Shown in pieces: positions 35,004 to 52,562 of a stretch of 64,000 bases of DNA. Source of the DNA: Streptomonospora salina (GTDB taxonomy: Bacteria > Actinomycetota > Actinomycetes > Streptosporangiales > Streptosporangiaceae); contig NZ_JACHLY010000001.1 in NCBI RefSeq assembly GCF_014204715.1, positions 62,001 through 126,000 of the forward strand, read 5' to 3'. A program made the translations under genes and the position numbers. The notes under the pieces are model-generated. The model saw only the letters and a program-made list of their open reading frames with translations. It ran no database searches and was not told the origin of the DNA. Numbering within the stretch: the first letter of the stretch is position 1; the number at the start of each line of letters is the position of its first letter.

Positions 35004-35046
35004 TTTGTGTTCAGGCTGATGGAGGGGGTGAGCGTGCCGCGGCCGG

Positions 35047-35569
35047 GACTGGTCGGACCGTGGTCGCACAAGTACCCGCACCTGGGTGTGCCCGGACCCG
35101 CCATCGGGTTCCTGCAGCAGTGCGTGCGCTGGTGGGACCGCCGGCTCAAGGGCGTGGACAACGACATCATGAGCGAGTCGACGGTGCGGACCTGGATGCG
35201 GGCGAGCATGCCGCCCCCACCGCCTACGAGGAGCGGCCCGGCCGCTGGGTGGGCGAGCCCCGCTGGTCCTCCCCGCGCGTCGGCCGCCGTACCCACCCGC
35301 TGGCCAAGGACCGCATCGCCGAGCCCGGCGAGGCGGTCGGCTCCGGGAGCGCATCGGTGGAGTCGCCGCTGACCGTGGGGCAGTACGCGGGCAAGCGGTG
35401 CTGCCCCGGCGGGAACGCCTGAGCCGAGGGCACGCCCCCGCTGGAGACGACCCGCCTGGCTCCGGGCGGTCGGCAGTGGAAGGTCGAGCGCGACCTGGTC
35501 GACTACGAGCCGTCGCTGCGGGTGGCCGCGCGCACCTGGAACACGGTCGTCCCGCGCGACCACGTCTGA
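35047..35569 (+). pseudogene. Decayed S15/CocE-NonD family hydrolase fragment
   Basis: Right after the TnpB fragment the same frame reads VGPWSHKYPHLGVPGPAIGFLQQCVRWWDRRLKGVDNDIM, the late catalytic-domain segment of peptidase S15/CocE esterases (GPWSH holds the catalytic His). A frameshift near 35215 continues as YEERPGRWVGEPRWSSPRV and SPLTVGQYAGKRCCPGGNA, stopping at 35420-35422. A last piece, LETTRLAPGG...YEPSLRVAARTWNTVVPRDHV, ends at 35569 and resembles the family C-terminus. More than 300 residues are missing. It is a gene remnant, probably cut by the adjacent insertion. Confidence 0.7.
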
Positions 35570-36333: not shown

Positions 36334-36371
36334 GCCGCTCCTGCCCGTCGCACGGTGCTCGATCGAATGAT

Positions 36372-36384
36372 GTAGACAGTCTAC
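36372..36384. promoter_or_regulatory. GntR operator candidate 1 (gntR promoter)
   Basis: GTAGAC-A-GTCTAC, perfect arms of 6 bp, between the divergent gntR and panE-like genes, 39 bp from the gntR start. Most divergent member of the operator set, as expected for an autoregulatory site. Confidence 0.65.
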
Positions 36385-36611
36385 GAAATCCCGGCCGTGC
36401 CCGCAGTCCGAGCGGCGATCGCGGACCCGCGGGCGTCCCGCCGGCCCGCGATCGCACGGGGCGCTCCCGGCGGCGCGCCGACCGCCGCAGCCGCGCCCGC
36501 CCCCTGCGAACGAGGGTTCGGCGACGGAGAAGAACCGATGAAGTTACTTCTCGCCTGCATTCACCCGTTCCTTTTCCGCTGCCGACCCCTCGCCCGTGCA
36601 CCATCGTCAGC

Positions 36612-36627
36612 ATACTGTATACAGAAT
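36612..36627. promoter_or_regulatory. GntR operator candidate 2 (panE-like promoter)
   Basis: ATACTGTATACAGAAT contains the perfect palindrome CTGTATACAG at 36615-36624, about 30 bp from the ATG at 36655. Also contains TACTGT, a plausible TAnnnT -10 element. Closest copy to the consensus. Confidence 0.75.
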
Positions 36628-36654
36628 CGTTCGGGCGAGAGAACGGAGCACAGT

Positions 36655-37656
36655 ATGAGAATCGCCATCCTCGGCGCCGGCGCGATCGGCGCCTACGCGG
36701 GCGCCGCCCTGCACCGCGGCGGTGCCGACGTCCACCTGATCGCCCGGGGGCCCCACCTTGAGGCGCTGCGGGCCGAGGGCGTCCGCGTCCTCAGCGACCG
36801 GGGCGACTTCACCGCCCGGCCCGACGCCACCGACGACCCCCGCGAGATCGGGCCGGTCGACGTCGTCTTCCTCGGGCTCAAAGCCCAGCACTACGCGGCC
36901 TGCGGGCCGATGCTGCGCCCGCTCATGGGCCCGGGCACCGCCGTGGTCGCCGCGCAGAACGGCATCCCCTGGTGGTATTTCCACGGCACCTCGGGGCCCC
37001 TGGCCGAGCACCGGGTGCACACCGTCGACCCGGGCGGCTCGGTGAGCCGGGCGATCCCCGTCGAGCGCGCCGTCGGCTGCGTCGTCTACGCCGCGACCGA
37101 GATCGAGGCGCCCGGCGTGGTGCGCCACCTGGAGGGCACCCGCTTCTCCATCGGCGAGCCCGACGGCAGCGCCTCCCGGCGCTGCACCGGCTTCAGCGAG
37201 GCGATGAAGGCCGGGGGCCTGAAGTGCCCGGTCGAACCGGAACTGCGCGAGGACATCTGGGTCAAGCTGATGGGCAACATCACCTTCAACCCCCTCAGTG
37301 CGCTGACCCGCTCCACCATGGCCCAGATCTGCGGCGGGCGCTCCACCCGCGAGCTGGCGCGGGCGATGATGAACGAGACGCTCGGGGTGGCCTCGCGCCT
37401 GGGCATCGATCCCGCGATCTCCGTCGAGCGCCGCCTGGCCGGCGCCGAGCGCGCCGGCGACCACCGCACCTCCACCCTGCACGACGTCGAGCGCGGCCGG
37501 CCCATGGAACTCGACGTCATCCTCACCGCCGTCGTCGAACTCGCCGACCTGGTCGGCGCCGAGGTTCCCGCCCTGCGCACCGTCGACGCGGTGTCCCGAC
37601 TGCTCAACGACCGGCTGGTCGACGGAAGCGTGGCCGACCGCATGGCCGCCGCCTGA
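36655..37656 (+). CDS. PanE-like reductase, candidate oxalyl-CoA reductase
   Basis: 333 residues of the ketopantoate reductase family. NADP-binding GAGAIGAYAG (residues about 7-16), GLKAQHY, NGIPWWYF (glycine/asparagine turn at the NADP site), and the catalytic lysine region WVKLMGNITFNPLSALT, where the Lys and Asn are the active residues of PanE. The canonical reaction is ketopantoate to pantoate, but the location next to formyl-CoA transferase and oxalate transport genes and the operator in front point to another substrate: in Methylobacterium extorquens a PanE homologue (PanE2) is the oxalyl-CoA reductase that gives glyoxylate. I infer the same role. ATG at 36655; a start at 36538 is unlikely. 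Confidence 0.85.
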   Translation: MRIAILGAGAIGAYAGAALHRGGADVHLIARGPHLEALRAEGVRVLSDRGDFTARPDATDDPREIGPVDVVFLGLKAQHYAACGPMLRPLMGPGTAVVAAQNGIPWWYFHGTSGPLAEHRVHTVDPGGSVSRAIPVERAVGCVVYAATEIEAPGVVRHLEGTRFSIGEPDGSASRRCTGFSEAMKAGGLKCPVEPELREDIWVKLMGNITFNPLSALTRSTMAQICGGRSTRELARAMMNETLGVASRLGIDPAISVERRLAGAERAGDHRTSTLHDVERGRPMELDVILTAVVELADLVGAEVPALRTVDAVSRLLNDRLVDGSVADRMAAA

Positions 37657-37745
37657 GGCCCTGCCCTGCCCCGTGTCCGGCGAGGGGACGCCCCCTGCCG
37701 CCGCCCCCTCGCCTGCGATCCCTTGCCCGCCCTCGGAGTGCCGCA

Positions 37746-37759
37746 TACTGTAGACAATA
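37746..37759. promoter_or_regulatory. GntR operator candidate 3 (fdhA promoter)
   Basis: ATACTGTAGACAAT: left arm identical to site 2 (ATACTGTA), right arm degraded (GACA). It lies 59 bp upstream of the formate dehydrogenase catalytic gene. Confidence 0.6.
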
Positions 37760-37817
37760 TTGCTGTGATGTAATTGACACACCGCAGCGGCGACGAGATC
37801 CAAGCGAGGCCTTGAAG

Positions 37818-39788
37818 ATGCGATCGGACGACCACCAGCCCAGCAGCTACGAACGCCTCACCCGCCCGCTCGTCCGTGAGGACGGCCGGCTGCGTCCCGC
37901 CTCGTGGGACGAGGCGCTGGACCGCGCGGCCGAGGGCTTCCGCGCCGGCGTCCAGCGCCACGGCCCCGACACGTTCGGCATGCTCTCCTGCGCACGCGCC
38001 ACCAACGAGATGAACTTCGTGGCCCAGAAGTTCAGCCGCGTCGTCATGGGCACCAACAACGTCGACTCCTGCAACCGCACGTGCCACGCACCGAGCGTGG
38101 CCGGACTGGCCGCAGCCTTCGGTTCCGGAGGGGGCACCTCCTCCTACGCCGACGTCGAGGACACCGACCTGATCATCGTGTGGGGCGGCAATCCGCGCTT
38201 CGCGCACCCGATCTTCTTCCAGCACGTCCTCAAGGGCGTGCACAAGGGCGCCCGACTGGTCGTGGTCGACCCCCGCCGGACCTCCTCGGCCCAGTGGGCC
38301 GACCGCTGGCTGGGCCTCAACGTCGGCACCGACATCCCGCTGGCCCACGCGATCGGACGCGAGATCATCCACGCCGGGCTGACCAACGACGCCTTCATCC
38401 AGCGCGCCACCACCGGCTTCGAGGAGTACCGCGAGCTGGTCGAGCCCTGGACCCCGGCTGCGGCCGAGGCCGAGACGGGCGTGCCGGCCGAGGCCGTGCG
38501 CGAACTGGCCCACGCCTACGCCACCGCCGAGCGGGCGCAGCTGTCGTGGACGCTGGGCATCACCGAGCACCACAACGCCACCGACAACGTCAAGGCGCTG
38601 ATCAACCTCGCCTTGCTGACCGGGCACGTGGGCCGCCACGGATCCGGTCTGCAGCCGCTGCGCGGGCAGAACAACGTGCAGGGCGGCGGCGACATGGGCG
38701 CCATCCCCGACCGGCTGGCCGGCTTCCAGGACATCCTCGATCCCGAGGTCCGCTCGCGCTTCGAGTCGGTCTGGAACACCACCATCCAGCCGCACAAGGG
38801 CAAGACGCTGACCCAGATGTTCGAGGCGATGGACGAGGACGAGCTCAAGACGCTCTACGTCATCGGCGAGAACCCGGTGCAGTCTGAGCCCGAGACCTTC
38901 ACCACCACCCGCCGGCTGCAGCGGCTGGACCACCTGGTGGTGCAGGACATCTTCCTGACCAGAACCGCCGAACTGGCCGACGTGGTGCTGCCGGCCAGCG
39001 CCTCCTGGTGCGAATCCGACGGCACCTTCACCAACAGCGAGCGCCGCGTGCAGCTGGTGCGCAAGGCGCTGGACCCGCCGCCGGGGGCGCGCGACGACAT
39101 CGAGATCATGTGCGACCTGGCCCAGCGCCTGGGCCACGCCTGGCAGCGCCCTGAAGCCGAGGAGATCTGGGACGAGCTGCGCAGCCTCTCCCCGATCCAC
39201 CGCGGCATGAGCTACCGGCGGCTGGAAGAGTTGCAGGGCATCCAGTGGCCCTGCTTCTCCGAGGACAGTCTGGAACCCGGCTACCTGCACCACCGGCTGT
39301 GGTCGACCGATCCCCGGCAGCGCGGCGCGCCCGCGCCCTTCGGCATCGTGGGCCACTCCCCGCCGGTCGACCTGCTCGACGAGGACTATCCCTTCCGCCT
39401 GACCACGGGCCGCCGGCTGGACGACTACAACACCGGCGTGCAGACCAGCGGCTTCTCCTCGCCCATGCGGCGCGGGGAGGCGCTGGACCTCTCGCCCGAG
39501 GACGCCCGGCGGCTGGACATCGCCGACGGCGAGACCGTACGGGTCGCCTCGCGCCGCGGATCGGTGCTGGTTCCCGCCGCGGTCTCCGCGCAGATGCGCG
39601 CGGGGCTGGTCTTCATGACCTTCCACTTCCCCGATCAGGTCGACACCCAGCTGCTGACCATCGACGCCACCGACCCCGACGCCGGCACCGCCGAGTACAA
39701 GGCGGCGGCCGTGCGCATCGAGAAGACCGCCGAGGACACCGCACCCGCAGGGGCGGCCGGCCATGCGCCGGTTCCGGCATCGCCCTAG
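37818..39788 (+). CDS. NAD-linked formate dehydrogenase, catalytic molybdopterin part (split alpha subunit)
   Basis: 656 residues carrying the molybdopterin oxidoreductase and molydopterin-dinucleotide-binding domains. Active-site motif TNNVDSCNRTCHAPSVAGLA puts the catalytic Cys at C89 next to H90; other landmarks are VWGGNPRFAHP, GHVGRHGSGLQPLRGQNNVQGGGDMG and the C-terminal domain PFRLTTGRRLDDYNTGVQT. It oxidises formate to CO2. Its N-terminus begins at LTRPLVREDG, exactly where a full FdhA would follow its Fe4S4 domain; that missing domain is encoded at the C-terminus of the separate gene at 42139. No Sec codon: C89 is TGC. ATG at 37818; ends 328 bp before fdhB with a hairpin at 39841. 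Confidence 0.92.
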   Translation: MRSDDHQPSSYERLTRPLVREDGRLRPASWDEALDRAAEGFRAGVQRHGPDTFGMLSCARATNEMNFVAQKFSRVVMGTNNVDSCNRTCHAPSVAGLAAAFGSGGGTSSYADVEDTDLIIVWGGNPRFAHPIFFQHVLKGVHKGARLVVVDPRRTSSAQWADRWLGLNVGTDIPLAHAIGREIIHAGLTNDAFIQRATTGFEEYRELVEPWTPAAAEAETGVPAEAVRELAHAYATAERAQLSWTLGITEHHNATDNVKALINLALLTGHVGRHGSGLQPLRGQNNVQGGGDMGAIPDRLAGFQDILDPEVRSRFESVWNTTIQPHKGKTLTQMFEAMDEDELKTLYVIGENPVQSEPETFTTTRRLQRLDHLVVQDIFLTRTAELADVVLPASASWCESDGTFTNSERRVQLVRKALDPPPGARDDIEIMCDLAQRLGHAWQRPEAEEIWDELRSLSPIHRGMSYRRLEELQGIQWPCFSEDSLEPGYLHHRLWSTDPRQRGAPAPFGIVGHSPPVDLLDEDYPFRLTTGRRLDDYNTGVQTSGFSSPMRRGEALDLSPEDARRLDIADGETVRVASRRGSVLVPAAVSAQMRAGLVFMTFHFPDQVDTQLLTIDATDPDAGTAEYKAAAVRIEKTAEDTAPAGAAGHAPVPASP

Positions 39789-39840
39789 CGGCGGCGACCG
39801 CCGCGGCCCGCCGGCCCGGACCGCGGGGTCCGGGCCGCGG

Positions 39841-39875
39841 CCCCGGGTGCGCTGTTCGCCACCACGCACCCGGGG
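39841..39875. terminator. Hairpin downstream of the FDH catalytic gene
   Basis: An 11-bp stem CCCCGGGTGCG / CGCACCCGGGG with a 13-base loop starts 52 bp after the stop of fdhA. The flanking sequence can extend the stem. Likely terminator. Confidence 0.5.
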
Positions 39876-40067
39876 CGCGGGCCGCGGCTACGCGTCGGGG
39901 GCCGCACCGGCCGAGCGGATCCGGTGCGGCCCCGAAGTGCGGTACGGACGCGGCGTCTGCGGATGCGCCTCCCGGGTGCCTGCCCCGCGCGGCGCAGGCG
40001 CTGCCACCTGCAGCACAGCACGCCGACACGGACGCGGACAGGGGGTTGCCCACGGGAGGAATGAAGC

Positions 40068-40087
40068 ATACTGTAGCCCGTATACAA
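40068..40087. promoter_or_regulatory. GntR operator candidate 4 (NuoE-NuoF promoter)
   Basis: ATACTGTA, five bases, TATACAAA: two half sites instead of one compact palindrome. It is 30 bp upstream of the GTG at 40117, the same relation as sites 2, 6 and 7. Confidence 0.6.
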
Positions 40088-40116
40088 AGTCTGTGACCTG
40101 GCTTACATGATTCGAG

Positions 40117-42129
40117 GTGACCGGGGACGTGGACCTGCACTTCCTGGACGCAGTGCCCGAGGACGCCGAACGCGAGGCCGTGGACGCCGTCCTGGGTCCG
40201 CCGGATTCGGGATGGGACGGCGGCACCCGCCACGCGTCCGATCTGCGCTTCGCCGAGGGCGGCCACGTCGCCCGCGGCAGGCGCGACCTGCTGCTTCCGG
40301 CCCTGCACGCCGTCAACGACCGCGTGGGCTGGATCAGCCGGGCCGCGCTCGACTACATCTGCCGCCGACTGACGATCCCGCCGGCCGAGGCCTACGGCGT
40401 GGCGACCTTCTACGCCATGTTCGCACTCGAACGGCGCCCCCGCCGGGTGGTGCACGTATGCACCGACATCGCCTGCGCGGCAAAGGACTCCGCGAGCCTG
40501 TGCGCGCAGATGCGCGAGCGCGCCGGGGGGCCGGGCGGCGACGACGGGGAGTTCACCTGGCACGAGAGCCCGTGCCTGGGCCTGTGCGAACGCGCGCCCG
40601 CCGCGGTGTCACTGCAGGCCGGCGACCCGCCCCGCTACAGCGTCGCCGCCCCGGCACGCGCCGGCGAGATCATCCCCGAGCCGGGCGAGGTACCCGCCGG
40701 CGACACGCCCGCGGCCCCCGCGGCCGACGGACACGGCGCACCGGGCGACAGCCACGGGCCCCCGCTCGGCGGGGGCCGCCCGCAGCGCCGCACCACGTTC
40801 TCCCCCGACACGCTTCCCGGTCCCGCGCCCGAACCGCCGCCCCACGCCGCGGTCCCCCAAGCCGGCGACCCCGACCTCGTCCTGCTGCGCCGCATCGGCG
40901 TGGTCGACCCCACCAGCCTGGACGACTACCGCGCCAACGGCGGCTACGCGGCGCTCCGCGAAGCGATGCGCCTGGGGCCCAGCGGCGTCATCCGGGAGGT
41001 CGCCGACTCGGGGCTGGTCGGGCGCGGCGGCGCCGCCTTCCCGACCGGCCGCAAATGGGACGCAACCGCCAAACGACCCGAAACCCCGCGCTACGTCATC
41101 TGCAACGCCGACGAAAGCGAGCCGGGAACCTTCAAGGACCGGGTCCTCATGGAGGGCGACCCGTTCGCGGTCGTCGAGGCGCTGACCATCGCCGGCTACG
41201 CCAACAACGCCGCCGTCGGCTACATCTACATCCGCGGCGAGTACCCGCGGGCGCTGTGGCTGCTGGAGAACGCCGTCGAGCTGGCCCGGGAGCGCAACCT
41301 GCTGGGTACCGACATCCTCGGGTCCGGGTTCGACTTCGACATCGAGATCCGCCGCGGCGCCGGCGCCTACATCTGCGGTGAGGAGACCGCGATCTTCAAC
41401 TCGATCGAAGGGCTGCGCGGCGAGCCCCGCAGCAAACCGCCCTTCCCCGTCGAGCGCGGCGTCTTCGGCAAACCGACGGCCATCAACAACGTCGAAACCC
41501 TGGTCAACGTACTGCCGATCGTGCTGCACGGCGGCCCCGCCTACGCCTCCGTCGGCACCGGCCGATCCACGGGCCCCAAGCTCTTCTGCGTCTCCGGCGC
41601 CGTCGAGCGCCCCGGCGTCTACGAGGTGCCCTTCGGCGCCGACCTGCGCGCGCTCATGGAGATGTGCGGCGGCGCGGGCACCGGCCCCGACGGAGCGCAG
41701 CGCCTACCGCGGGCGGTGCTGCTCGGCGGGGCCGCCGGCGGGTTCGTCCGCGGCGACGAGCTCGACATCCCCCTGACTCTGGAAGGCGCACGCGACGCCG
41801 GGGCCACCCTGGGCTCGGGCGTCATCCTCGTACTCGACGACGACGTCGACCTCACCGCGATCCTCGTGCGCATCGCGGCGTTCTTCCGCGACGAGTCCTG
41901 CGGCCAGTGCGTGCCCTGCCGGGTGGGCACCGTCCGGCAGGAGGAGGCGCTGGTGCGGCTCTCCCGGGAAACGGGGGCACGCGACACCGACCTGGCGCTG
42001 CTGCGCGAGGTCGGCGACGCGATGCGCGACGCCTCGATCTGCGGGCTGGGCCAGACCGCCTGGAACGCGGTCGAGTCGGCGATCGACCGGCTGGGCGCGT
42101 TCGGCCCGCAGGAGGAATCAACCCGTTAA
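40117..42129 (+). CDS. NuoE-NuoF fusion: formate dehydrogenase NADH/FMN subunit
   Basis: 670 residues. N-terminal thioredoxin-like 2Fe-2S domain (about 40-165) with cluster cysteines C115, C120, C153 and C157 in the normal spacing. A Pro-rich linker of about 70 residues leads to a NuoF domain (about 245-660): NADH/FMN motif GRGGAAFPTGRKW, ICNADESEPGTFKDR, GAGAYICGEETA and the 4Fe-4S ligands SCGQCVPCRVGT plus a late Cys in ASICGLGQ. It passes electrons from the formate site to NAD, as in soluble FdsABG enzymes, where NuoE and NuoF are usually separate. GTG at 40117. It stops 9 bp before the Fe-S subunit gene and is co-transcribed with it. Confidence 0.93.
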   Translation: MTGDVDLHFLDAVPEDAEREAVDAVLGPPDSGWDGGTRHASDLRFAEGGHVARGRRDLLLPALHAVNDRVGWISRAALDYICRRLTIPPAEAYGVATFYAMFALERRPRRVVHVCTDIACAAKDSASLCAQMRERAGGPGGDDGEFTWHESPCLGLCERAPAAVSLQAGDPPRYSVAAPARAGEIIPEPGEVPAGDTPAAPAADGHGAPGDSHGPPLGGGRPQRRTTFSPDTLPGPAPEPPPHAAVPQAGDPDLVLLRRIGVVDPTSLDDYRANGGYAALREAMRLGPSGVIREVADSGLVGRGGAAFPTGRKWDATAKRPETPRYVICNADESEPGTFKDRVLMEGDPFAVVEALTIAGYANNAAVGYIYIRGEYPRALWLLENAVELARERNLLGTDILGSGFDFDIEIRRGAGAYICGEETAIFNSIEGLRGEPRSKPPFPVERGVFGKPTAINNVETLVNVLPIVLHGGPAYASVGTGRSTGPKLFCVSGAVERPGVYEVPFGADLRALMEMCGGAGTGPDGAQRLPRAVLLGGAAGGFVRGDELDIPLTLEGARDAGATLGSGVILVLDDDVDLTAILVRIAAFFRDESCGQCVPCRVGTVRQEEALVRLSRETGARDTDLALLREVGDAMRDASICGLGQTAWNAVESAIDRLGAFGPQEESTR

Positions 42130-42138
42130 GGAGGTCCG

Positions 42139-43080
42139 GTGAGCACACCGGTTGCTATTGGGACGCCTCGCCGCCTGGTCGAGGCCACCGTCGACGGGCG
42201 GCAGGTGCGCGTGCCCGAGGGGTCGACCATCCTGGACGCCTGCGAATCCGTCGGCACCGACGTACCGACCCTGTGCTACGGCGACACCCTCACGCCGCGC
42301 AACGCCTGCCGGGTGTGCGTGGTGGAGGTCGAGGGGGCGCGCACGCTCGTTCCCGCCTGCTCGCGCAGAATCGAAGACTCGATGTCGGTGGCCACCGACT
42401 CCGAGCGGGTCCGCCACAGCCGCAAGATGGTGCTGGAGCTGCTGGGCTCCTCCGTGGACCTGTCCACCACACCCGGCATCGCCGAATGGAACGAGCGCTA
42501 CGACGCCCGGCCCGAGCGCTTCGGCCCGCGAGCCGAACCCGCCACCATGGGCGAGCGCGACGCCCGCCGCGCCGGGGAGCACACGGTCGGCGACGGCACG
42601 ACCGCCGAGACCGTCGAGCAGCCCGTCAAGGACGACAACGATCTCTACGTGCGCGACTACGGCAAATGCATCATGTGCTACAAGTGCGTCGACGCCTGCG
42701 GCGAGCAGTGGCAGAACACCTTCGCCATCGGCATCGCCGGCCGCGGGTTCGACGCCGGGGTCTCCACCGAGCACGACCTGGCGCTGCCCGACTCCGCCTG
42801 CGTCTACTGCGGCAACTGCATCGAAGTCTGCCCCACCGGGGCGCTGATGTTCCGCTCGGAGTACGAGATGCGCCAGGAGGGTACCTGGGACGAGGAGAAG
42901 CAGTCCCAGACCACCACCGTGTGCACCTACTGCGGAGTCGGGTGCAACGTCACCCTCCACGTGCAGGAGAACGAGATCGTCAAGGTCACCTCGCCGCACG
43001 ACAACCCCGTCACGCACGGGAACCTGTGCATCAAGGGCCGGTTCGGCTACCAGCACGTACAGCAGCGACGCCGCGACTGA
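42139..43080 (+). CDS. Fe-S half of the formate dehydrogenase alpha subunit (Fer2 + 2x4Fe-4S + Fe4S4 domain)
   Basis: 313 residues from GTG at 42139 behind AAGGAGG. Domain order: Fer2 2Fe-2S domain (C46, C57, C60, C74), a segment (75-176) with no cysteine where related subunits have a His-Cys cluster, a ferredoxin-like pair (C177-C187 and C221-C231) and, at the very end, the Fe4S4 domain that normally opens the molybdopterin subunit (C262, C265, C269, C297; VCTYCGVGCNVTL and NLCIKGRFGYQHV). It stops at GRFGYQHVQQRRRD, just where the gene at 37818 begins its similarity. Together the two genes make one complete FdsA-like chain. A hairpin follows at 43085. Confidence 0.92.
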   Translation: MSTPVAIGTPRRLVEATVDGRQVRVPEGSTILDACESVGTDVPTLCYGDTLTPRNACRVCVVEVEGARTLVPACSRRIEDSMSVATDSERVRHSRKMVLELLGSSVDLSTTPGIAEWNERYDARPERFGPRAEPATMGERDARRAGEHTVGDGTTAETVEQPVKDDNDLYVRDYGKCIMCYKCVDACGEQWQNTFAIGIAGRGFDAGVSTEHDLALPDSACVYCGNCIEVCPTGALMFRSEYEMRQEGTWDEEKQSQTTTVCTYCGVGCNVTLHVQENEIVKVTSPHDNPVTHGNLCIKGRFGYQHVQQRRRD

Positions 43081-43084
43081 CACC

Positions 43085-43109
43085 GCGGCGGCCCATGCGG
43101 GGCCGCCGC
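43085..43109. terminator. Hairpin after the FDH Fe-S gene
   Basis: 10-bp stem GCGGCGGCCC / GGGCCGCCGC with a 5-base loop, 4 bp after the stop codon. Likely ends the NuoEF/Fe-S operon before fdhD. Confidence 0.55.
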
Positions 43110-43248
43110 AGCCGGGGCGGGTGCGATCGGACCGCGGTGCGGCGGCACGACTGAAACCCGGCCGGAGCGGGAACACCCCCCGCGTCCGGCCGCACCGACA
43201 GCACGCCGGGCGCGGGAAGCCCGGGCGCTTCCGGAAAGGGGCGGGTCC

Positions 43249-44109
43249 ATGGGACGGGTCACGGTCCGCGAGCGGATCCTGCGCATCCGCGACGGCGCGG
43301 CGCAGGAGCGCGCCGACACCCTGGTGGCCGAGGAGCCGCTGGAGATCCGGATGAACGGCCGGGCGCTGACCGTCACGATGCGCACGCCCGGACACGATTT
43401 CGACCTGGCGGCGGGGTTCCTGGTCAGCGAGGGCGTCATCACCGGCGCCGACCAGATCTCGACCATCCGCTACTGCGCCGGCGCCACCGACGACGGCTCC
43501 AACACCTACAACGTCCTCGACGTCGCACTGGCTCCCGGGGTCGCGGTGCCCGAGGCGTCGCTGGAACGCAACTTCTACACCACCTCCTCCTGCGGCGTGT
43601 GCGGCAAGGCCAGCCTGGAGGCGGTCTCCACCGTGGCCCACTGGTCGGTCGCCGGCGACGAGGCGAACTTCGCGGTGCCGGTCCTGTCGCAGCTGCCCGA
43701 CCGGCTGCGCGAGGCCCAGCGGGTCTTCGACCGCACCGGTGGACTGCACGCCGCCGGGCTGTTCACGCCCGAGGGGGAACTGCTCGCCGTGCGCGAGGAC
43801 GTCGGCCGGCACAACGCCGTCGACAAGCTCGTGGGCTGGGCCCTGCGCGAGCACCGGCTGCCGCTGCGCGGCAGCGCGCTGATGGTCTCGGGGCGGGCTT
43901 CGTTCGAACTCGCGCAGAAGGCGCTGATGGCGGGAATCCCGATGCTGGCCGCGGTCTCCGCGCCCTCGTCGCTGGCCGTGGAGCTGGCCGCCGACTCGGG
44001 GCTGAGCCTGGTCGGATTCCTGCGCGGCGCCTCCATGAACGTCTACGCCGGCCGGCAACGGGTCACCCTGGAGACGGCGTCCGCGACGCCGATGGCGGCC
44101 CCGGGGTGA
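43249..44109 (+). CDS. fdhD: Formate dehydrogenase accessory sulfurtransferase
   Basis: 286 residues. FdhD transfers sulfur from the cysteine desulfurase to the molybdenum/bis-MGD cofactor, required for active formate dehydrogenase. The key CxxC is C115-C118 in [12 protein letters not shown]; other signatures are [42 protein letters not shown], and [12 protein letters not shown]. The ATG at 43249 follows GGAAAGGGG. It lies 168 bp after the FDH Fe-S gene and has no operator of its own that I can see. Its presence supports the molybdenum nature of the FDH. Confidence 0.95.
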
Positions 44110-44333
44110 CCCGCCGACCGGGCCGGTAGGCGCGAGACCGGCCGGCGTGCACCAGCCCCCTGCGCCGGCCGGTCCCGACATTCCCCGCGCCGGACACGGC
44201 GGCCCCGGTCCGGGAGACGACCGCCGAGTCGGGGCCGGCGAACAACGAGCCCGGGGTTTCACCGGTGTCCAAGCACTGCGCCGGCAAAAGCCGCGCGCTG
44301 GACGTGCCGGTTCCACGTGCGTCCGGCGCACCG

Positions 44334-44915
44334 CTATTGCGGTTTCGCCGCCTTCTTCGCCGCCTTCTCGCTCTTTTTGAAAGCGCGGACCTCGGCGAGG
44401 GTCTGCTCGTCGACCACGTCGGCGATGGAGCGGCGCGCGCCCTGTTCGCCGTAGGCGCCGGCCGCCTCGCGCCAGCCCGGCGCCTGCAGCCCGAACTGCT
44501 TGCCCAGCAGCGCCAGGAAGATCCGCGCCTTCTGGTCCCCGTAGCCCGGCAGCGCCTTGAGCCGCTTGAGCACCTCGCGGCCCTCGGGTTCGCCCGAGGT
44601 CCACAGCGCGGCGGCGTCGCCGCCGTAGTGCTCGACGAGGTAGCCGCACAGCGTCTGGATGCGGCCCGCCATCGAGCCGGGGAAGCGGTGGACGGCGGGC
44701 TGCCGGGAGCAGACCTCGGCGAACTCTTCCGGGGCGGTGGCGGCGATGGTCCCGGCGTCCAGGCCGCCCACCCGGTCGGCGATCTTCTTCGGACCGGCGA
44801 AGGCCACCTCCATCGCCACCTGCTGGTCCAGCAGCATCCCGATCAGCAGCGCCAGCGGATCCGACGCCAGCAGTGCGTCGGCTTCGGGTTCTTGGACGAG
44901 GTGCAACGACGTCAT
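44334..44915 (-). CDS. HhH-GPD family base-excision repair protein
   Basis: 193 residues. Endonuclease III-like all-helical fold with a helix-hairpin-helix: LIGMLLDQQVAMEVAFAGPKKIADRVGG near the start and LKRLKALPGYGDQKARIFLALLGKQFG (about 117-143), where Lys in the K-rich loop would be catalytic in bifunctional enzymes. No iron-sulfur cysteines follow. A Lys/Ala-rich tail ends the protein (KKSEKAAKKAAKPQ). It probably removes damaged bases. It sits inside the oxalate locus but has no functional link visible; convergent with fdhD. Confidence 0.88.
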   Translation of the reverse strand: MTSLHLVQEPEADALLASDPLALLIGMLLDQQVAMEVAFAGPKKIADRVGGLDAGTIAATAPEEFAEVCSRQPAVHRFPGSMAGRIQTLCGYLVEHYGGDAAALWTSGEPEGREVLKRLKALPGYGDQKARIFLALLGKQFGLQAPGWREAAGAYGEQGARRSIADVVDEQTLAEVRAFKKSEKAAKKAAKPQ

Positions 44916-45164
44916 AGCCCCATGGTCCCAGCCGAGAGCCCTGACGGCACGCTCCGCGCCAGTGCGGTGGGGAAAAGCGGCGGAGGTCCGAGCGCTGGGA
45001 GCGGATCCGGCGGCGCGCCGCGGCGCGATCAGGCCGGCGGAGCCCGGTCGCTGTCGGCTGCGCCCGCGGGTCGCGGCGGTGGCCGCGCTGCGCGGAACCG
45101 GCCCGGCCGACGGCCCCGATGTCCCCGCCGGCCCGCACTGAGCGAGCCGGCGGGGCGGATCACC

Positions 45165-46712
45165 TCAGCCGCGGTCCGCGGGGACGTAGGTGTAGTCGGG
45201 GAAGTTGCCGGGCAGGCGCTCGCCGACCGGGCCGCGGGTGACGGCGTGGACCAGGAGCTTGCCACCCACGAAGGCGCCGCGCCAGGACGCGCCCCAGCCG
45301 CCGAACATCTCGTCGCGGTCGCCGCGCGAGCGCGGCCGGTTGATGCCGACCTTGAAGGCGCGGACCTCGTCGGCCAGCCGCGCTCCCAGGTCGGGGTCGT
45401 CGGTGGAGATGTTCGACACCAGGGCTCCGTTGCTGGCGTTCATGGCCGCCAGCAGCTCGGCTTCGGTGTCGACGAGCACGATGGAGTCGGCCGGGCCGAA
45501 GGGCTCGGCGTGGAACAGCGGGGAGGAGCGCGGCGGCTCCAGCAGGGACACCGGAGCGACGTAGGCGTCGGTGTTCTGGCCGGGCAGCAGGTGGGCGTCG
45601 TCGACCGACCCGCGGTACAGCGGCACCGCTCCGCCGGCGACGGCGTCGCCCACCTGGGCGGTGAGGTCCTTGGCTTTGGCGGCGTTGATGAGCGGGCCGA
45701 AGTCGAGCTCGGGCAGGTCGTCCCCGGGCGCGGAGACGGCCAGCGGGTGGCCGAAGCGCACCGAGTCCACCGCCGGCAGGTAGGCGCCGAGGAACCGGTC
45801 GAACAGGGAGCGCTGCACGACGAAGCGAGGATAGGCGGTGCAGCGCTGTTTCGCGTAGTCGAAGGTCGTGCGGACCTGTCCGGCGAAGGTCTCCCAGTCG
45901 CTGTATTCCCACACGCCCCAGCAGTTGAGCCCTTCCTGCTCCAGGATGTGGGGCTTGCCGAGGTCGGCGAGGTCGGCGGCGACCCGGCCGCCGGTGTCGC
46001 GGCCGCCGACGAAGGACACGCAGCCGATCTCGGGCGAGCGCACCAGCACCGGCGACAGGTTCCGTCCGCCGCCGCTGACCAGCGTGAAGGGCAGGCCTTC
46101 GCGCGCGGCCAGGGCCACGGCCAGGGTCAAGCACACCAGGCCGCCGTCGGTGGGGGTCTTGGCGACGGCGGCGTTGCCGGCCAGGGCCTGCACGCACATG
46201 GCGTGGGCCAGCACGCTCATCGGGTAGTTCCAGCTGGCGATGTTGCTGACCGGCCCCTCCAGCGGAGCGCGGCCCTGCATCATCTCCTCGATCTGCTCCA
46301 GGTACCACTCGGAGCCCGAGATCGCGCGGTCGACGTCCTGGCGGGCCAGCTTCCAGGACTTGCCGATCTCCCAGACCAGGGCGAGCGCGAGCGTGTCGCG
46401 GTGCTCGCTCCAGGCGTCGACGGCGGCGCGCACCCGCGCGCGGCGCTCCTGAAGCGGGACGACCCGCCAAGCGCGGTGCCGGTCGGCCGCCGCGCGCACC
46501 GCCGCCTCGGCGGTGTCGGGGTCGACCATGGGCGGGCCGGCGATCTCGGTGCCGTCGACGGGCGAGACGGCCAGGCGCGGTTCGCCGTCGGCGCGCCAGC
46601 GCCCGCCCCAGTGGTTGTGCACCCGGTCGGCGGCGAAGGCCTCGGGGGCGATCTCGCGGCAGCGCCGGTAGAGGGCGGTCCATTCGGTTCCGGGCTTGAG
46701 CATGAGCGTCAT
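45165..46712 (-). CDS. Aldehyde dehydrogenase of uncertain substrate
   Basis: 515 residues of the ALDH superfamily. Catalytic Cys is in YAKQRCTAYPRFVVQ, general base Glu in LEQEGLNCWGVWEY, and the nucleotide region SFVGGRDTGGRV differs from the usual SFTGSTxVG. It is somewhat divergent from known subfamilies. In this locus glyoxylate, formaldehyde or a C2/C3 semialdehyde is conceivable; glyoxylate is formed if oxalyl-CoA is reduced. The ATG at 46710-46712 has GGAAT upstream. It follows sucD on the same strand after 156 bp, so it may be the last gene of the sucCD operon. No operator in front of it. Confidence 0.75.
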   Translation of the reverse strand: MTLMLKPGTEWTALYRRCREIAPEAFAADRVHNHWGGRWRADGEPRLAVSPVDGTEIAGPPMVDPDTAEAAVRAAADRHRAWRVVPLQERRARVRAAVDAWSEHRDTLALALVWEIGKSWKLARQDVDRAISGSEWYLEQIEEMMQGRAPLEGPVSNIASWNYPMSVLAHAMCVQALAGNAAVAKTPTDGGLVCLTLAVALAAREGLPFTLVSGGGRNLSPVLVRSPEIGCVSFVGGRDTGGRVAADLADLGKPHILEQEGLNCWGVWEYSDWETFAGQVRTTFDYAKQRCTAYPRFVVQRSLFDRFLGAYLPAVDSVRFGHPLAVSAPGDDLPELDFGPLINAAKAKDLTAQVGDAVAGGAVPLYRGSVDDAHLLPGQNTDAYVAPVSLLEPPRSSPLFHAEPFGPADSIVLVDTEAELLAAMNASNGALVSNISTDDPDLGARLADEVRAFKVGINRPRSRGDRDEMFGGWGASWRGAFVGGKLLVHAVTRGPVGERLPGNFPDYTYVPADRG

Positions 46713-46868
46713 GGGATTCCCCTGGTGGTTGCGGTGCTGGGCGGATGCGGACCGCCGGCGGACCGCATCCGCCGGCTCGTGCGAGCCTGCCCCGGTTCCG
46801 GGTCCGCGGCTACGGCCGCGGCGGGTGTACTTCGGCGACTCTTCACGGTCTGTCGCGAGCGGCGATAA

Positions 46869-47747
46869 TCACCACAGCGCCCGGGCGATCCCGGCCGCCT
46901 CGGTCGGGGTCGTGCCGACCTTGACGCCCGACGCCTCCAACGCCTCCTTCTTCGCCTGAGCCGTACCCGCCGACCCCGACACGATCGCCCCCGCATGACC
47001 CATCGTCTTACCCTCGGGCGCGGTGAACCCGGCCACATACCCCACCACGGGCGTGGACACGTGCTCACGCACATACTCCGCCGCCCGCTCCTCGGCATCC
47101 CCGCCGATCTCACCGATCATCACGATCGCATCGGTCTCCGGATCCGCCTCGAACGCCGCCAGCGCATCGATATGCGTCGTCCCGATCACCGGATCCCCAC
47201 CGATCCCCACCGCCGTGGAGAACCCGATATCCCGCAGCTCATACATCATCTGATACGTCAGCGTGCCCGACTTCGACACCAGACCGATCCGCCCCGGCCG
47301 CGTGATATCGGCCGGAATGATCCCCGCATTGGACGCCCCCGGCGAAATCAACCCCGGGCAGTTCGGCCCCACGATCCGCGTCCGGTTCCCCGCCGACCGC
47401 GCATGCGACCAGAACGCCGCCGTATCGTGCACCGGAATCCCCTCGGTGATCACCACCGCCAGACCGATCCCCGCATCGACCGCCTCGACCACCGCCGCCC
47501 GAGCGAACTTCGGCGGCACGAACACCACCGTCACATCCGCCCCGGTCGCCGCCATCCCCTCGGCCACCGACGCGAACACCGGCACCGCACTGCCGTCGAT
47601 ATCCACCGCCGAACCGGCCTTGCGCGGATTCACCCCGCCCACGACACGCGTACCCGACGCCAGCATCCGCCGCGTGTGCTTGGTGCCCTCCGAGCCCGTC
47701 ATGCCCTGGACCAGCACCTTGCTGTCCTTGGTCAGGAAAACAGCCAT
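46869..47747 (-). CDS. sucD: Succinyl-CoA ligase alpha subunit, second copy type
   Basis: 292 residues, canonical SucD. CoA-binding domain [19 protein letters not shown] with [50 protein letters not shown], and the phosphohistidine segment [12 protein letters not shown]. It forms succinyl-CoA from succinate, CoA and NTP, and in reverse makes NTP. Within an oxalate locus, succinyl-CoA is a good CoA donor for formyl-CoA:oxalate CoA-transferase. The codon third positions show more A/T (GAT, ATC/ATA, GGT) than adjacent genes, which may mark a different origin. ATG at 47747 lies 18 bp downstream of the end of sucC; coupled. Confidence 0.93.
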
Positions 47748-47765
47748 CGTCCTTCTTCCCCGCCT

Positions 47766-48938
47766 CTACTTCGCGGCCAGCTCCGCGGCCTGGGCCGCAG
47801 CGCCGTCCATGGTCGGGGCCTGCACCACCGCGGGGTGCCCGGCCCGGGTCAGGATCTCGCGGCCCAGCTCGGCGTTGTTGCCGTCCAGGCGCACCACCAG
47901 CGGCTTGGACACGTCGTCGCCGCGCGCCGCCAGCATCTCCAGCGCCTGCACGATGCCGTTGGCCACCGCGTCACAGGCCGTGATCCCGCCGAAGACGTTG
48001 ACGAACACGCTCCGCACGTCCGCATCGCCCAGGATGATCTCCAGCCCGTCGGCCATCACCTCGGCCGACGCGCCGCCGCCGATGTCCAGGAAATTCGCCG
48101 GCTGCACCCCGCCGTGGGCCTCCCCGGCATAGGACACGACGTCCAGCGTGGACATGACCAGCCCGGCACCGTTGCCGATGATGCCGACCCGACCGTCCAG
48201 CTTGACGTAATTCAACCCCTTCTGTTCGGCACGGGCCTCCAGCGATCCGGATGCGCCGTCGTCGTGGAATGCGACGCGCTCGGGGTGGCGATCCAGGGCG
48301 TTGTCGTCGAGCGTGACCTTGCCGTCGAGGGCGAGGACGCGGCCGTCGGCGGTGCGGACCAGGGGGTTGACTTCGACCAGAGTGGCGTCCTCCTCCCGGG
48401 CCACCTCCCACAGCCGCTGCAGCACGGCCGCGGCGGGCGGGTGGACTTGCGGGGGCAGGCCCGCCTCGGCGCAGATCGCCAGGGCCGTGTCGCGGTCCAG
48501 TCCGCTCTGCGCGTCGACGGGGGTGCGTACCACGGCCTCGGGACGCCTCTCGGCGACCTCCTCGATCTCGACGCCGCCTTCGGCGGAGCAGATCGACAGG
48601 AAGCTCCGGTTGGCGCGGTCCAGCAGGAAGGAGGCGTAGTACTCCTCCGCGATGTCGCTCGCTTCCTCGATCAGGACGCGGTGCACGGTGTGCCCCTTGA
48701 TGTCCATCCCGAGGATCCGCTCGGCCTTGGCGCGGGCGTCGGCGGCGTCGTCGGCGACCTGCACGCCGCCGGCCTTGCCGCGACCGCCGGCCTTCACCTG
48801 CGCCTTGACGACGACTTTGCCGCCCAGGCGGGCCGCACTGAGCTCGGCCTGCTCGGGCGAGGCGGCCAGCTGGCGCTCGGCCAGCGGGACCCCGCGGTCT
48901 CCGAACAGTTGCTTGGCTTCGTACTCGTAGAGGTCCAC
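47766..48938 (-). CDS. sucC: Succinyl-CoA ligase beta subunit, locus copy
   Basis: 390 residues from GTG at 48938 behind GAGGAGG. ATP-grasp fold with [46 protein letters not shown] and [10 protein letters not shown]; the C-terminal domain has NIFGGI-type [17 protein letters not shown]. Binds ADP or GDP and the substrate acid; forms the active site with SucD. Family members with the same appearance include malate-CoA ligase, so the acid is not certain. An operator variant at 49000-49016 precedes it, so the gene belongs to the oxalate regulon. Confidence 0.93.
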
Positions 48939-48998
48939 CGAGCCTCCTCGGCATCGCTGTGTGTTCCGGGACCCTCCCTCTACCGTGATACGCGAGAT

Positions 48999-49017
48999 CG
49001 TATGCAGTATGCAATAC
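48999..49017. promoter_or_regulatory. GntR operator candidate 5 (sucC promoter)
   Basis: On the reverse strand reads ATTGCATACTGCATACGA, containing ATACTGCATAC, one change from ATACTGTATAC. It lies about 62-78 bp upstream of the sucC start. Confidence 0.55.
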
Positions 49018-49123
49018 CACGATGCGCGAGTCTCTGCCGCGGAAGACCGATCGCGCACCGCCGGCCGGCGTGAATCCACGAAAGAGATTCCCCGGCCTCT
49101 TCTCAACTTCGGTTCATCGACGC

Positions 49124-49137
49124 ATACTGTATACGGT
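49124..49137. promoter_or_regulatory. GntR operator candidate 6 (OFA transporter promoter)
   Basis: ATACTGTATACGGT; CTGTATACGG (49127-49136) is one base off the palindrome CTGTATACAG. It is 26 bp before the ATG at 49163. TACTGT may also be the -10. Confidence 0.7.
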
Positions 49138-49162
49138 CCACTGACACTGTGAGGTGCGCCAT

Positions 49163-50533
49163 ATGAACCACCCGCCCGCCGCCACCGCACCGGCCGACCA
49201 CCTGGCCTCGCCCTACGCGCCCCAGCGGCGCACCGGCGAACTGCACGACTGGAGCGGGCGCCGCTATGCGGTCGGGCGCCCGGCCCGCGAGCTGGCCGGA
49301 TCCGCCCGCGCCGTCCCGGCGGCCCGGGCGGTCGCCGCGGTGTCGGCGATCGGCGTCCTGCAGTTCGGCTACGGCGCCACCGTTCCGCTGCTGACGGCCG
49401 CCCACGGTTGGAGCCCGGCGGCCGCACTGCTGCCCTTCGCGCTGTGGACGCTGATCCAGGGCGGCAGCGCCCGACCGATCGCGCGGCTGCGGGAACGCGG
49501 CCTGCTGTCCCCGGCGCGGGCGATCACGGTCGGCGCCCCGCTGTGCGCCGCCGCGCTCGCGGCCGTCGGCCTCGGCAGCGGACTCGTCGGGATGCTCCTC
49601 GCCTACGGCCTGGTCGGCGGGCTGGGCGCCGGACTCGTCTACCACTCCGGCGTGCACGTGGTCGCCGCCTGGTACCCCGAGCGCCCGACCGCCCCCGCGG
49701 TGTGGGCGGGGGCCGGTTTCGCGCTGGGCGCGGCCCCCCTGGTCGCCGGCCTGGCCCTGGCCCAGACCGCCCACCTCGCCGCCGCGCCGTGGCTGGGCGC
49801 CGTGCTGGCGTGCGCGGTGGGTGCCGCCGGGGCGGGGATCCGCACGCCGCCGCCGGGCTGGTGGCCGCCCGAGACCGATCCGCGCGACTGGGCACTGCGC
49901 CGGCGCGAGCCCGTGGCCTGCTACGACCACTCGGCCTCCCAGGCCTGGCGCAGCGGCGCCCTGCCCGGACTGCACGCGGTGGTGGCGCTGGCCGGCGCCG
50001 CCGCCCTGGTGGACCTGGCGGTACTACCGGTCCTACTGGCCCAGCACGGGATCCCTCCCGGCTCCACCGCCGCGGCACTGGCGGTGCTGGTGGCCTCCAG
50101 CGGCCTGGGCCGCGCCGCCGCCGGGCGCTGGGGCGAGCGCGTGGGCCGGCGGCGCTTCCTCGTCGCCGCGCTGGCCGCCGGCGCGGCCGCGCGGTTCGGC
50201 CTGGTCTGCGCCGCACTGACGGGATCGGGCGGCGCCCTGGTGCTGATGGCCGTGCCCGCGGGCGTCGGCGGGGGCTGCTGCTATCCGCTGACGCGGACTC
50301 TGGCCCAGGACTTCTTCGGCCACCGCGCCGACGCCGACATCCCCGGACTCGTCTACAGCGCCAAGGCGGTGGGCGGGATCGCGGGTGTGGGCGGCGCGGC
50401 GGCCCTGATCGCCCTGGCGCCGCACGCCGGGCCCGCGTTGTGCCTGGCCGGTGCGGGTGCGGCCGGTGCGGGCGCGGCCGCGGTCGCGGCCCGACTGCGG
50501 CGCCCGGTGCCCATTCGCACCCTTCCGCTCTAG
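49163..50533 (+). CDS. OFA-family MFS transporter, probable oxalate/formate carrier
   Basis: 456 residues and about 12 membrane helices. After an N-terminal cytoplasmic tail (1-45), features include [76 protein letters not shown] in TM8 and [11 protein letters not shown] in TM11. OxlT of Oxalobacter uses an Arg in TM8 and a Lys in TM11 for the dicarboxylate; equivalents appear to be present (inferred from position). It probably imports oxalate in exchange for formate or protons. The ATG is chosen over an in-frame GTG at 49154 because GAGGTG lies at good spacing. It is divergent from sucC, each with its own operator. Confidence 0.83.
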
Positions 50534-50552
50534 ACACCGGACGGGGGCTCGT

Positions 50553-50587
50553 TTGACGTCTTCTCGACCGTTGAAGGCCAAGATTCC
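50553..50587 (-). repeat. IS200/IS605 tnpB 3'-end relic
   Basis: On the reverse strand the segment has GGAATC, then GGCCTTCA and a tail GACGTCAA, closely following the actinobacterial tnpB element end (GGAATCCCC..., TTCA loop, ...GATGTCAA). The stem is degraded. No tnpB is nearby, so only a scar remains. Confidence 0.55.
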
Positions 50588-50833
50588 AGCCTGCCGCTCG
50601 CACGGCTTCTGGCGAGTTCCCGCTTCAACGACCTGCGCCGGCACGGATGCGGGTCTTATCCGGCCTCCATCAGGCGTTTACCCTCTCCGCCCGTCCGGCG
50701 GCGAGCCACTGCAACGCCCGCTTGGTTTTCACGGGCAGTGATGACGCTACTACGAATCGGGAGCCCGATTCGCACGAATCCGAAAGCTAGAACACTTCCG
50801 CGGAAGACGGGTAGCCAGGTATCCATGAACGTC

Positions 50834-50849
50834 ATACTGTATTCAGTAT
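50834..50849. promoter_or_regulatory. GntR operator candidate 7 (ThDP enzyme promoter)
   Basis: ATACTGTATTCAGTAT: perfect inverted arms ATACTG / CAGTAT around TATT, the fullest arms of all copies, 24 bp before the ATG at 50874. Confidence 0.75.
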
Positions 50850-50873: not shown

Positions 50874-52562
50874 ATGACTGACGACACGGGTGCAGACACC
50901 ACGATCTCCGGCGGCCACCTGGTCGCCAAGGCCCTCAAGGCCGAGGGGGTCGATGTGATCTTCACGCTCTGCGGCGGCCACATCATCGACATCTACGACG
51001 GTTGCGCCGACGAGGGCATCGACGTCATCGACGTCCGCCACGAGCAGGTGGCGGCCCACGCGGCCGACGGCTACGCGCGGGTGACCGGAAAGCCCGGATG
51101 CGCGGTCGTCACCGCCGGCCCCGGCACGACCGACTCCGTCACCGGCATCGCCAACGCCTACCGCGCCGAGAGCCCCGTGCTGGTCATCGGCGGGCAGGGC
51201 GCCCTCAGCCAGCACAAGATGGGTTCGCTGCAGGACCTTCCGCACGTCGACATGATCGGGCCCGTCTCCAAGTTCGCCGCGACCGTCCCGCACACCGAGC
51301 GGGTGGCCGACCTGGTCTCGATGGCGTTCCGGGAGTCGATGAACGGCGCCCCCGGCCCCTCTTTCCTGGAGATCCCGCGCGACGTCCTCGACGCCTCCGT
51401 ACCCGCGGAATCGGCCCGAGTGCCCGAGGCCGGCCGCTACCGCGCCTCCACCCGCCAAGCCGGCGACCCCGACGCGATCGAGCGCCTGGCCGAGCTGCTG
51501 GTGCGCTCCGAACGCCCCAGCATCCTGCTGGGCAACCAGGTCCAGACCACCCACGCCACCGAGTCGGCCGTCGACCTGGTGCGCACCCTCAACGTCGCCG
51601 CCTACATGAACGGCGGCGGCCGCGGCACCCTGCCGCCGGGCGACCCGCACCACTTCCAGCTCTCGCGGCGCCACGCCTTCTCCAGCTCCGACCTGATCGT
51701 CATCGTCGGCACCCCCTTCGACTTCCGGATGGGCTACGGCAAACGGCTGTCGGCCGACGCCACGGTCGTGCAGATCGACCTCTCCTACGCCACGGTCGGC
51801 AAGAACCGCGACATCGACCTGGGCATCGTCGGCGACGCCGACGTCGTCCTGTCCTCGGTGCTGGAGGCGACCTCCGCCTACGGCGACAACGGGGCGCAGG
51901 GACGCAAGACCTGGCTGGAGGAGCTGCGCCAGGTCGAGAACACGGCGCTGGACAAGCGGGCGCCGCTGCTGGGCTCCGAGGCCACGCCCATCCACCCCTA
52001 CCGCCTGGTCAGTGAGATCAACGAGTTCCTGACCGAGGACTCCATCTACATCGGCGACGGCGGCGACGTCGTCACCTTCTCCGGCCAGGTGGTCCAGCCC
52101 AAGGCCCCGGGGCACTGGCTGGACCCGGGCCCGCTGGGCACGCTGGGCGTGGGCGTGCCCTTCGTGATGGCCACCAAGTACGCCCGCCCGGACAAGGAGG
52201 TCGTCGCGCTGTTCGGCGACGGCGCCTTCAGCCTCACCGGGTGGGACTTCGAGACGCTGGTGCGCTTCGACATGCCCTTCATCGGGATCATCGGCAACAA
52301 CTCCTCGATGAACCAGATCCGCTACGGCCAGGCCGCCAAGTACGGCGCCGACCGCGGCGAGATCGGCAACACGCTGGGCGACGTGCGCTACTCGGAGTTC
52401 GCCGCGATGCTCGGCGGCTACGGCGAGGAGGTCCACACACCCGACCAGATCGGGCCGGCGCTGCGGCGCGCCCGCGAATCCGGCACGCCCTCGCTGATCA
52501 ACGTCTGGATCGACCCGGAGGTCTACGCGCCGGGGACGATGAACCAGACCATGTACAAGTAG
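50874..52562 (+). CDS. ThDP-dependent decarboxylase, candidate non-canonical oxalyl-CoA decarboxylase
   Basis: 562 residues, three-domain ThDP enzyme. N-terminal PYR domain has the catalytic Glu E57 in DVRHEQVAAHAADGYARV; the C-terminal domain has the ThDP/Mg motif FGDGAFSLTGWDFETLVRFDMPFIGIIGNN. The sequence looks closer to acetolactate synthase-like/HACL-type proteins than to Oxc of Oxalobacter: the region of the Oxc Tyr-Glu pair (QQGDYEEMDQ) reads MGSLQDLPHVDM, and the mid-domain RLNWxxxxG reads FDFRMGYG. The position right before frc and the operator in front make oxalyl-CoA to formyl-CoA + CO2 the likely job. Acetolactate or glyoxylate carboligation remain options. RBS AAGGAGG; stop 15 bp before frc. 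Confidence 0.8.
   Translation: MTDDTGADTTISGGHLVAKALKAEGVDVIFTLCGGHIIDIYDGCADEGIDVIDVRHEQVAAHAADGYARVTGKPGCAVVTAGPGTTDSVTGIANAYRAESPVLVIGGQGALSQHKMGSLQDLPHVDMIGPVSKFAATVPHTERVADLVSMAFRESMNGAPGPSFLEIPRDVLDASVPAESARVPEAGRYRASTRQAGDPDAIERLAELLVRSERPSILLGNQVQTTHATESAVDLVRTLNVAAYMNGGGRGTLPPGDPHHFQLSRRHAFSSSDLIVIVGTPFDFRMGYGKRLSADATVVQIDLSYATVGKNRDIDLGIVGDADVVLSSVLEATSAYGDNGAQGRKTWLEELRQVENTALDKRAPLLGSEATPIHPYRLVSEINEFLTEDSIYIGDGGDVVTFSGQVVQPKAPGHWLDPGPLGTLGVGVPFVMATKYARPDKEVVALFGDGAFSLTGWDFETLVRFDMPFIGIIGNNSSMNQIRYGQAAKYGADRGEIGNTLGDVRYSEFAAMLGGYGEEVHTPDQIGPALRRARESGTPSLINVWIDPEVYAPGTMNQTMYK

Follow-up and report, generated by a model that had tools for sequence, protein, structure and literature searches.

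Palindromic sites and the genes they precede

The window analysed here is a 64,000-nucleotide stretch of the Streptomonospora salina genome (contig NZ_JACHLY010000001.1, positions 62,001 to 126,000; coordinates below are those of the window), in which a gene for a GntR-family regulator adjoins genes that appear to serve oxalate and formate use. An earlier note on this DNA had described seven palindromic promoter sites in this cluster, and we computed the sites, the genes they precede, their conservation and their linkage to the GntR gene. The pattern searched, ATACTGTATACAGTAT, is its own reverse complement, so that a scan of the plus strand suffices. With at most four mismatches it has exactly seven matches in the window (mean 0.02 and maximum 1 in 100 first-order Markov simulations), the same seven that had been described as variants of one consensus, and with at most three mismatches it has five (0 in 100 shuffles). 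All seven lie between genes, as had been stated. Four of the noted start positions stand (36612, 40068, 49124 and 50834), and the other three shift when given as 16-mer starts (36372 to 36367, 49000 to 48995 and 37746 to 37745).

Along the window, the putative operators are a weak one before gntR (36367–36382, minus strand; four mismatches, 33 bp from the ATG), which makes autoregulation, a frequent though not universal trait of the FadR/FCD subfamily, possible; one before a panE-like gene (36612–36627, plus strand; one mismatch, 27 bp from the ATG), the best site of the genome at 16.6 bits; one before fdhA (37745–37760, plus strand; two mismatches, 57 bp from the ATG); a composite site before nuoEF (40068–40090, plus strand; three mismatches for the 16-mer), which consists of a TACTGT half and a GTATAC dyad core 7 bp on and ends 26 bp before the GTG; a second weak one before sucC (48995–49010, minus strand; four mismatches, 56 bp from the start); one before a major facilitator superfamily (MFS) gene (49124–49139, plus strand; three mismatches, 23 bp from the ATG at 49163); and one before a thiamine diphosphate (ThDP) enzyme gene (50834–50849, plus strand; one mismatch, 24 bp from the ATG). 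With start codons read by eye, the spacing to the start is 23–57 bp instead of the 24–78 bp given before. The left half ATACTGT, said to recur in six of the seven, is exact in five; in transcriptional orientation, the other two read AGACTGT (gntR) and ATACTGC (sucC).

That these are chance AT-rich intergenic matches picked out by eye is scarcely credible: two of the seven have four mismatches and are too weak alone, but their number far exceeds the simulated mean and they are kept before the same genes in relatives, and an origin by chance or base composition was rejected on the shuffles and Markov simulations. Across the whole 5.6-Mb genome, seven places match with at most three mismatches, five of them within this cluster (two for the reversed pattern). 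The remaining two (C1:2181728 and C1:2802882) were treated as chance; the cross-genus model described below misses both at an expectation value (E) of ≤10.

Gene identities were taken from Pfam and NCBIfam scans. The proposed regulator of all seven sites is encoded by gntR (35635–36333, minus strand), whose 232-amino-acid product combines a GntR winged helix-turn-helix domain (PF00392, 69.3 bits; cut-off 27) with an FCD domain (PF07729, 94.7 bits; cut-off 24.3). Beside its 3′ end lies a frame that looks, by eye, like the remnant of an IS605-type OrfB/TnpB transposase (34397–35422). The plus strand continues with the panE-like reductase (36655–37656), which passes ketopantoate reductase subfamily cut-offs; an fdhA-like molybdopterin oxidoreductase, the catalytic part of a formate dehydrogenase (37818–39788; TIGR01591 647.3 bits, slightly below the cut-off of 666.25); the nuoEF-like NADH-binding fusion subunit of formate dehydrogenase (40117–42129; domain scan); and, without sites of their own, an iron–sulfur subunit (42139–43080; Fer2_4, Fer4 and Molybdop_Fe4S4) and fdhD (43249–44109). 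On the minus strand are the sucC-like CoA ligase beta subunit (47766–48938; start set at the GTG after GAGGAGGCT, scans from 48953), the sucD-like alpha subunit (46869–47747) and, downstream of sucCD, an aldehyde dehydrogenase (45165–46712), the latter two also without their own site. The MFS transporter (49163–50533, plus strand; scanned from 49154) is followed on the same strand by the ThDP enzyme of the oxalyl-CoA decarboxylase/2-hydroxyacyl-CoA lyase group (50874–52562; profile and structure matches), frc for formyl-CoA:oxalate CoA-transferase (52581–53807; TIGR03253 638.7 bits, cut-off 504.2) and an ADP-forming acyl-CoA ligase (53812–55953) that starts 4 bp after frc and is assigned at family level, below the cut-offs shown. 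The putative regulon holds two distinct ADP-forming CoA-ligase systems, a SucCD-like one (46869–48938) and this fused one after frc, either of which may activate oxalate or recover ATP.

Beyond Frc, we infer the pathway (oxalate to oxalyl-CoA, and from there to formyl-CoA plus formate, or to glyoxylate) from Frc itself, formate dehydrogenase and gene company, because the ThDP protein and the transporter miss the cut-offs of their models: the former scores 237 bits against 739.4 for oxalyl-CoA decarboxylase (TIGR03254), and the latter matches TIGR04259, the oxalate/formate antiporter model, only weakly (43.1 bits, cut-off 335). The nearest solved-structure (PDB) relatives of the ThDP protein are 2-hydroxyacyl-CoA lyases, and it may act as an oxalyl-CoA decarboxylase. 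The ThDP enzyme adjoining frc forms a divergent clade that the standard oxalyl-CoA decarboxylase model misses. The methylotroph enzyme that reduces oxalyl-CoA is PanE-like. Judging from its gene company, the panE-like reductase is a candidate oxalyl-CoA reductase. Reduction of oxalyl-CoA to glyoxylate in aerobic methylotrophs is mentioned in an excerpt of PMC3720670.

Recurrence of the sites in relatives

Conservation was assessed in an order set of 41 loci (40 stretches plus the window) and a named set of 80 loci. A site was counted if it had at most four mismatches and lay within 200 bp upstream of a start (starts being alignment starts); one site may serve two divergent genes, as with sucC and MFS. 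The six operon heads (panE, fdhA, nuoEF, sucC, MFS and the oxc-like ThDP gene) are preceded by a site at 110 of 118 starts in the order set and 158 of 190 in the named set, so that the placement before these genes described in the earlier note recurs in relatives. Seven further genes of the cluster (fdhG, fdhD, hhh, aldh, sucD, frc and acd) have one at 1/101 and 3/175 starts, and the reversed motif occurs before no cluster gene of either set. Per-gene rates were lowest for nuoEF (12/16 in the order set, 8/12 in the named set), fdhA (19/21, 10/15) and MFS (18/19, 25/37). At least one site with at most three mismatches is present in 29 of the 41 order-set loci and 66 of the 80 named loci, and such sites accompany clusters of this kind in Nocardiopsis, Nonomuraea, Pseudonocardia, Saccharopolyspora, Plantactinospora and Mycobacterium loci, among others.

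We built a sequence-only site model from matches with at most four mismatches that precede the corresponding genes in genomes of other genera (60 collected, 56 used, 4 dropped; one training site is identical to the nuoEF site of the window). Of the 60 sites, 56 retain G6 and C11 (56/56 in the model after removal of the four without them), and the consensus core, CTGT-AT-ACAG, fits a GT-Nx-AC palindrome with TKGT/ACMA boxes. Applied to the own 5.6-Mb genome at E ≤ 10, the model gave seven matches at five places, all of them in this cluster (78 loosely preselected candidates scored). When the window was scanned with filters off, the seven sites outranked all other places. The sucC site scored 8.1 bits (E 0.48, sixth place) and the gntR site 6.0 bits (E 2.4 for the window, seventh place); the place ranked next, 53093, reaches 4.8 bits, less than one strand score of the gntR site (6.0) and more than the other (4.6). 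These two weakest sites are not callable from the model alone.

The candidate regulator

A sample of 249 genomes of the order was used to link the sites to a regulator. The GntR protein has a match (orthologue threshold E ≤ 1e-40) in 118 of them, the motif with at most two mismatches occurs in 109 and frc in 103. At least two such sites were found in 88 of the 100 genomes that carry GntR together with frc, 0/18 with GntR and no frc, 1/3 with frc and no GntR, and 1/128 with neither. The reversed motif is present in 31/118 genomes with GntR and 20/131 without it, so single hits are partly noise. Among the three genomes with frc and no GntR, the contigs of G061 (which has sites) and G221 break off where gntR would be expected, which leaves G231 as the sole informative case: it has retained oxc and frc, possesses just a 40% GntR relative and lacks any site with up to five mismatches in 18 kb around oxc–frc. 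This co-occurrence, the cross-genus site model and the conservation before operon heads strongly support the GntR regulon that had been proposed over the listed genes, and the adjacent FCD-type GntR protein is very probably the regulator of the seven sites.

Binding of the palindrome by a different regulator is improbable, for example by the paralogue encoded at C1:4968404 of the own genome (64% identical to the adjacent GntR protein), alone or together with the adjacent protein. Eleven genomes have a site with at most two mismatches and no orthologue at E ≤ 1e-40, and G069, G133 and G231 carry a more distant GntR gene at most about 2 kb from such a site. However, 67 of the 88 GntR- and frc-containing genomes with at least two sites carry just one GntR match at E ≤ 1e-40, so that no second copy is required; a 20-kb stretch around the paralogue has no site with up to four mismatches; the proteins of G107 and G142, genomes with neither frc nor site, group with the paralogue; and G231, with its GntR relative and its oxc–frc region free of sites, also speaks against another regulator. 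The four paralogue-type GntR promoters that were read are without a good palindrome, and at L107, a GntR orthologue locus without frc, a degenerate palindrome, ACACTGTCTACAGCCC, stands before the gene. The paralogue directly follows, by eye, a moeA-like gene (molybdopterin transferase; L087 8022–11090, that is, C1:4966022–4969090), again without an oxalate-type site; this region has up to 91% DNA identity over 4.1 kb with Streptomonospora alba (L124), and the sequence preceding the paralogue in L099 looks similar to that of the own genome.

Several points weigh against the adjacent GntR protein as the regulator of the seven sites. The start of gntR itself has a site within 200 bp in just 15/41 and 16/83 cases (order and named sets, paralogues included), and loci with oxc, frc or panE yet without a site of at most three mismatches make up 2/41 of the order set and 7/80 of the named set. 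Of the 100 GntR- and frc-containing genomes, five are without a site of at most two mismatches and seven have only one. The counts are not independent, the genomes being related and 9 of the 80 named loci lying on contigs that are also in the order set, and the training sites of the model were picked before the same genes with the consensus of the earlier note (at most four mismatches). The recognition helix is nearly the same in the 64%-identical paralogue, which, as far as sequence goes, may allow cross-binding.

Promoter overlap and proposed mechanism

The TACTGT half of the sites had been suggested to be the −10 hexamer. A −35-like TTGCCC word lies 17 bp before the TACTGT of the fdhA site (37723–37728, plus strand) and likewise before that of the nuoEF site (40046–40051, plus strand). 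Across genera, such a word recurs at 17–18 bp from TACTGT as TTGNC in 6/6 genera for nuoEF and as TTG in 8/12 for fdhA, and the TACTGT at 37746–37751 as well as the TACTGT half of the composite nuoEF site are probable −10 elements. For panE (TTGAC in 8/17 genera, absent from the own genus) and sucC (TGGAC in 5/14), the −35-like word is 11–12 bp away, so that the −10 element would fall on TATACN inside the palindrome; for the oxc-like gene, TGGAC lies about 31–32 bp upstream of the site in 7/14 genera, which would place the operator near +1. No recurrent −35-like word was found across genera for the MFS and gntR promoters. The suggestion is thus partly right, being supported for fdhA and nuoEF only (another register for panE, sucC and oxc, no recurrent word for MFS and gntR), and the promoter comparison supports a predicted overlap of the operator with the core promoter in five of the seven promoter classes.

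The upstream half of the palindrome is better kept than the downstream half for panE (15:1), fdhA (10:2), nuoEF (6:0) and gntR (7:1; 7 of 9 genera); the ratios for oxc (1:5), sucC (4:3) and MFS (3:5) led us to reject better conservation of the upstream half as a general rule. That the sites are strong promoter elements common to co-expressed genes, with TACTGT as −10 and without operator function, is very improbable. The TTG words of nuoEF and fdhA and the bias towards the upstream half in panE, fdhA, nuoEF and gntR (38 versus 4, 2 ties) are in its favour, but oxc, sucC and MFS lack this asymmetry (8 versus 13, 20 ties), have a −35 register that differs or is unseen and still keep the dyad, and a site with at most two mismatches is wholly absent from 119 of the 128 genomes that lack GntR as well as frc.

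We consider it highly probable that the seven palindromes are promoter-proximal operators of the FCD-type GntR protein, which would repress the oxalate and formate transcripts until a carboxylate ligand binds. We infer that a GntR dimer would read two inverted half-sites around the GT-(2 nt)-AC core, with the operators on or beside the core promoters of transcripts for oxalate uptake, oxalyl-CoA formation, its splitting or reduction, and formate oxidation. Repression at the promoter is likely, as bound GntR would keep RNA polymerase off, and a pathway carboxylate (oxalate, oxalyl-CoA, glyoxylate or formate) at the FCD metal site would release it. Residues N143, H147, H189 and H211 of the FCD domain, the putative metal site, are invariant in eight orthologues.

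The protein matches the structure 6Z74 of Atu1419 at 9.4e-13. According to excerpts of PMC7797058, Atu1419 is an FCD/VanR-type GntR repressor of hydroxycinnamate genes in Agrobacterium fabrum, with a zinc site formed by Asn137, His141, His192 and His214 and with ATGTATACAT operators that overlap −10 boxes. Both proteins have an FCD domain with an Asn-plus-three-His metal site (putative here), the ligands being similarly spaced when compared by eye, and in both cases a TGTATACA-type palindrome would lie over the −10 box at several local promoters, including that of Atu1419 itself. Unlike the present case, Atu1419 serves another pathway and is described as a tetramer with a 10-bp operator; the conserved palindrome here spans 16 bp. 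The sites also agree with the operator rule for the FadR subfamily in excerpts of PMC4494728 (TKGT/ACMA boxes, a 2-nt GT–AC spacing as in MdcY and HypR, and catabolic regulons), and the T in CTGT fits a proline that avoids a G/C pair at a helix position that we mapped by eye to Pro58; the words 'oxalate' and 'formate' have 0 occurrences in the main text of that paper. EvgA of Escherichia coli, as described in an excerpt of PMC3720670, similarly controls formyl-CoA:oxalate CoA-transferase and oxalyl-CoA decarboxylase genes (yfdXWUVE); EvgA, however, is a response regulator that activates the acid response, in contrast to the GntR repressor proposed here.

No GntR regulator of oxalate genes was found in full-text searches of an open-access library (subscription papers, supplements and regulon databases lay outside the search); 'GntR family', oxalate and formyl-CoA occur together in PMC5987411, whose excerpted text does no more than tally the regulators of a proteome. 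Both the kind of operator and the kind of protein are known, as is the kind of system, a local FadR-subfamily GntR regulon; no description of the oxalate/formate member turned up in those searches. For actinomycetes, the analysis puts forward a specific regulator and operator of oxalate and formate use that can be put to the test, and the regulon would mark pathway enzymes, namely the PanE-like reductase, the SucCD-like and ADP-forming CoA ligases, the aldehyde dehydrogenase and the divergent ThDP enzyme.

A third half-site (at least 5/7 bases) lies 7 bp downstream in 15% of 183 operators, whereas other offsets average 0.9% and reach at most 5%; when each genus and gene contributes a single operator, the counts are 13/81 in one set and 4/48 in the other. 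The 7-bp-phased offsets (10 of 62) account for 23/60 and 14/29 hits, a signal that may be due in part to shared ancestry and set overlap. In the nuoEF promoter of the window, the centre given in the earlier note is followed 7 bp downstream by the GTATAC dyad core, and in L116 the best nuoEF-promoter match is in the register shifted by 7 bp. The recurring half-sites in 7-bp steps suggest overlapping dyads. We hold as tentative, and on balance doubtful, the broader idea that one undescribed repressor controls oxalate and formate use in several orders of actinomycetes, with two dimers or a tetramer sitting on overlapping dyads that face different sides of the DNA and some half-sites doubling as −10 elements. 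Half-sites in 7-bp steps beside the dyad can be seen at 40068–40090 of the window and in L116, L120, L076 and other loci.

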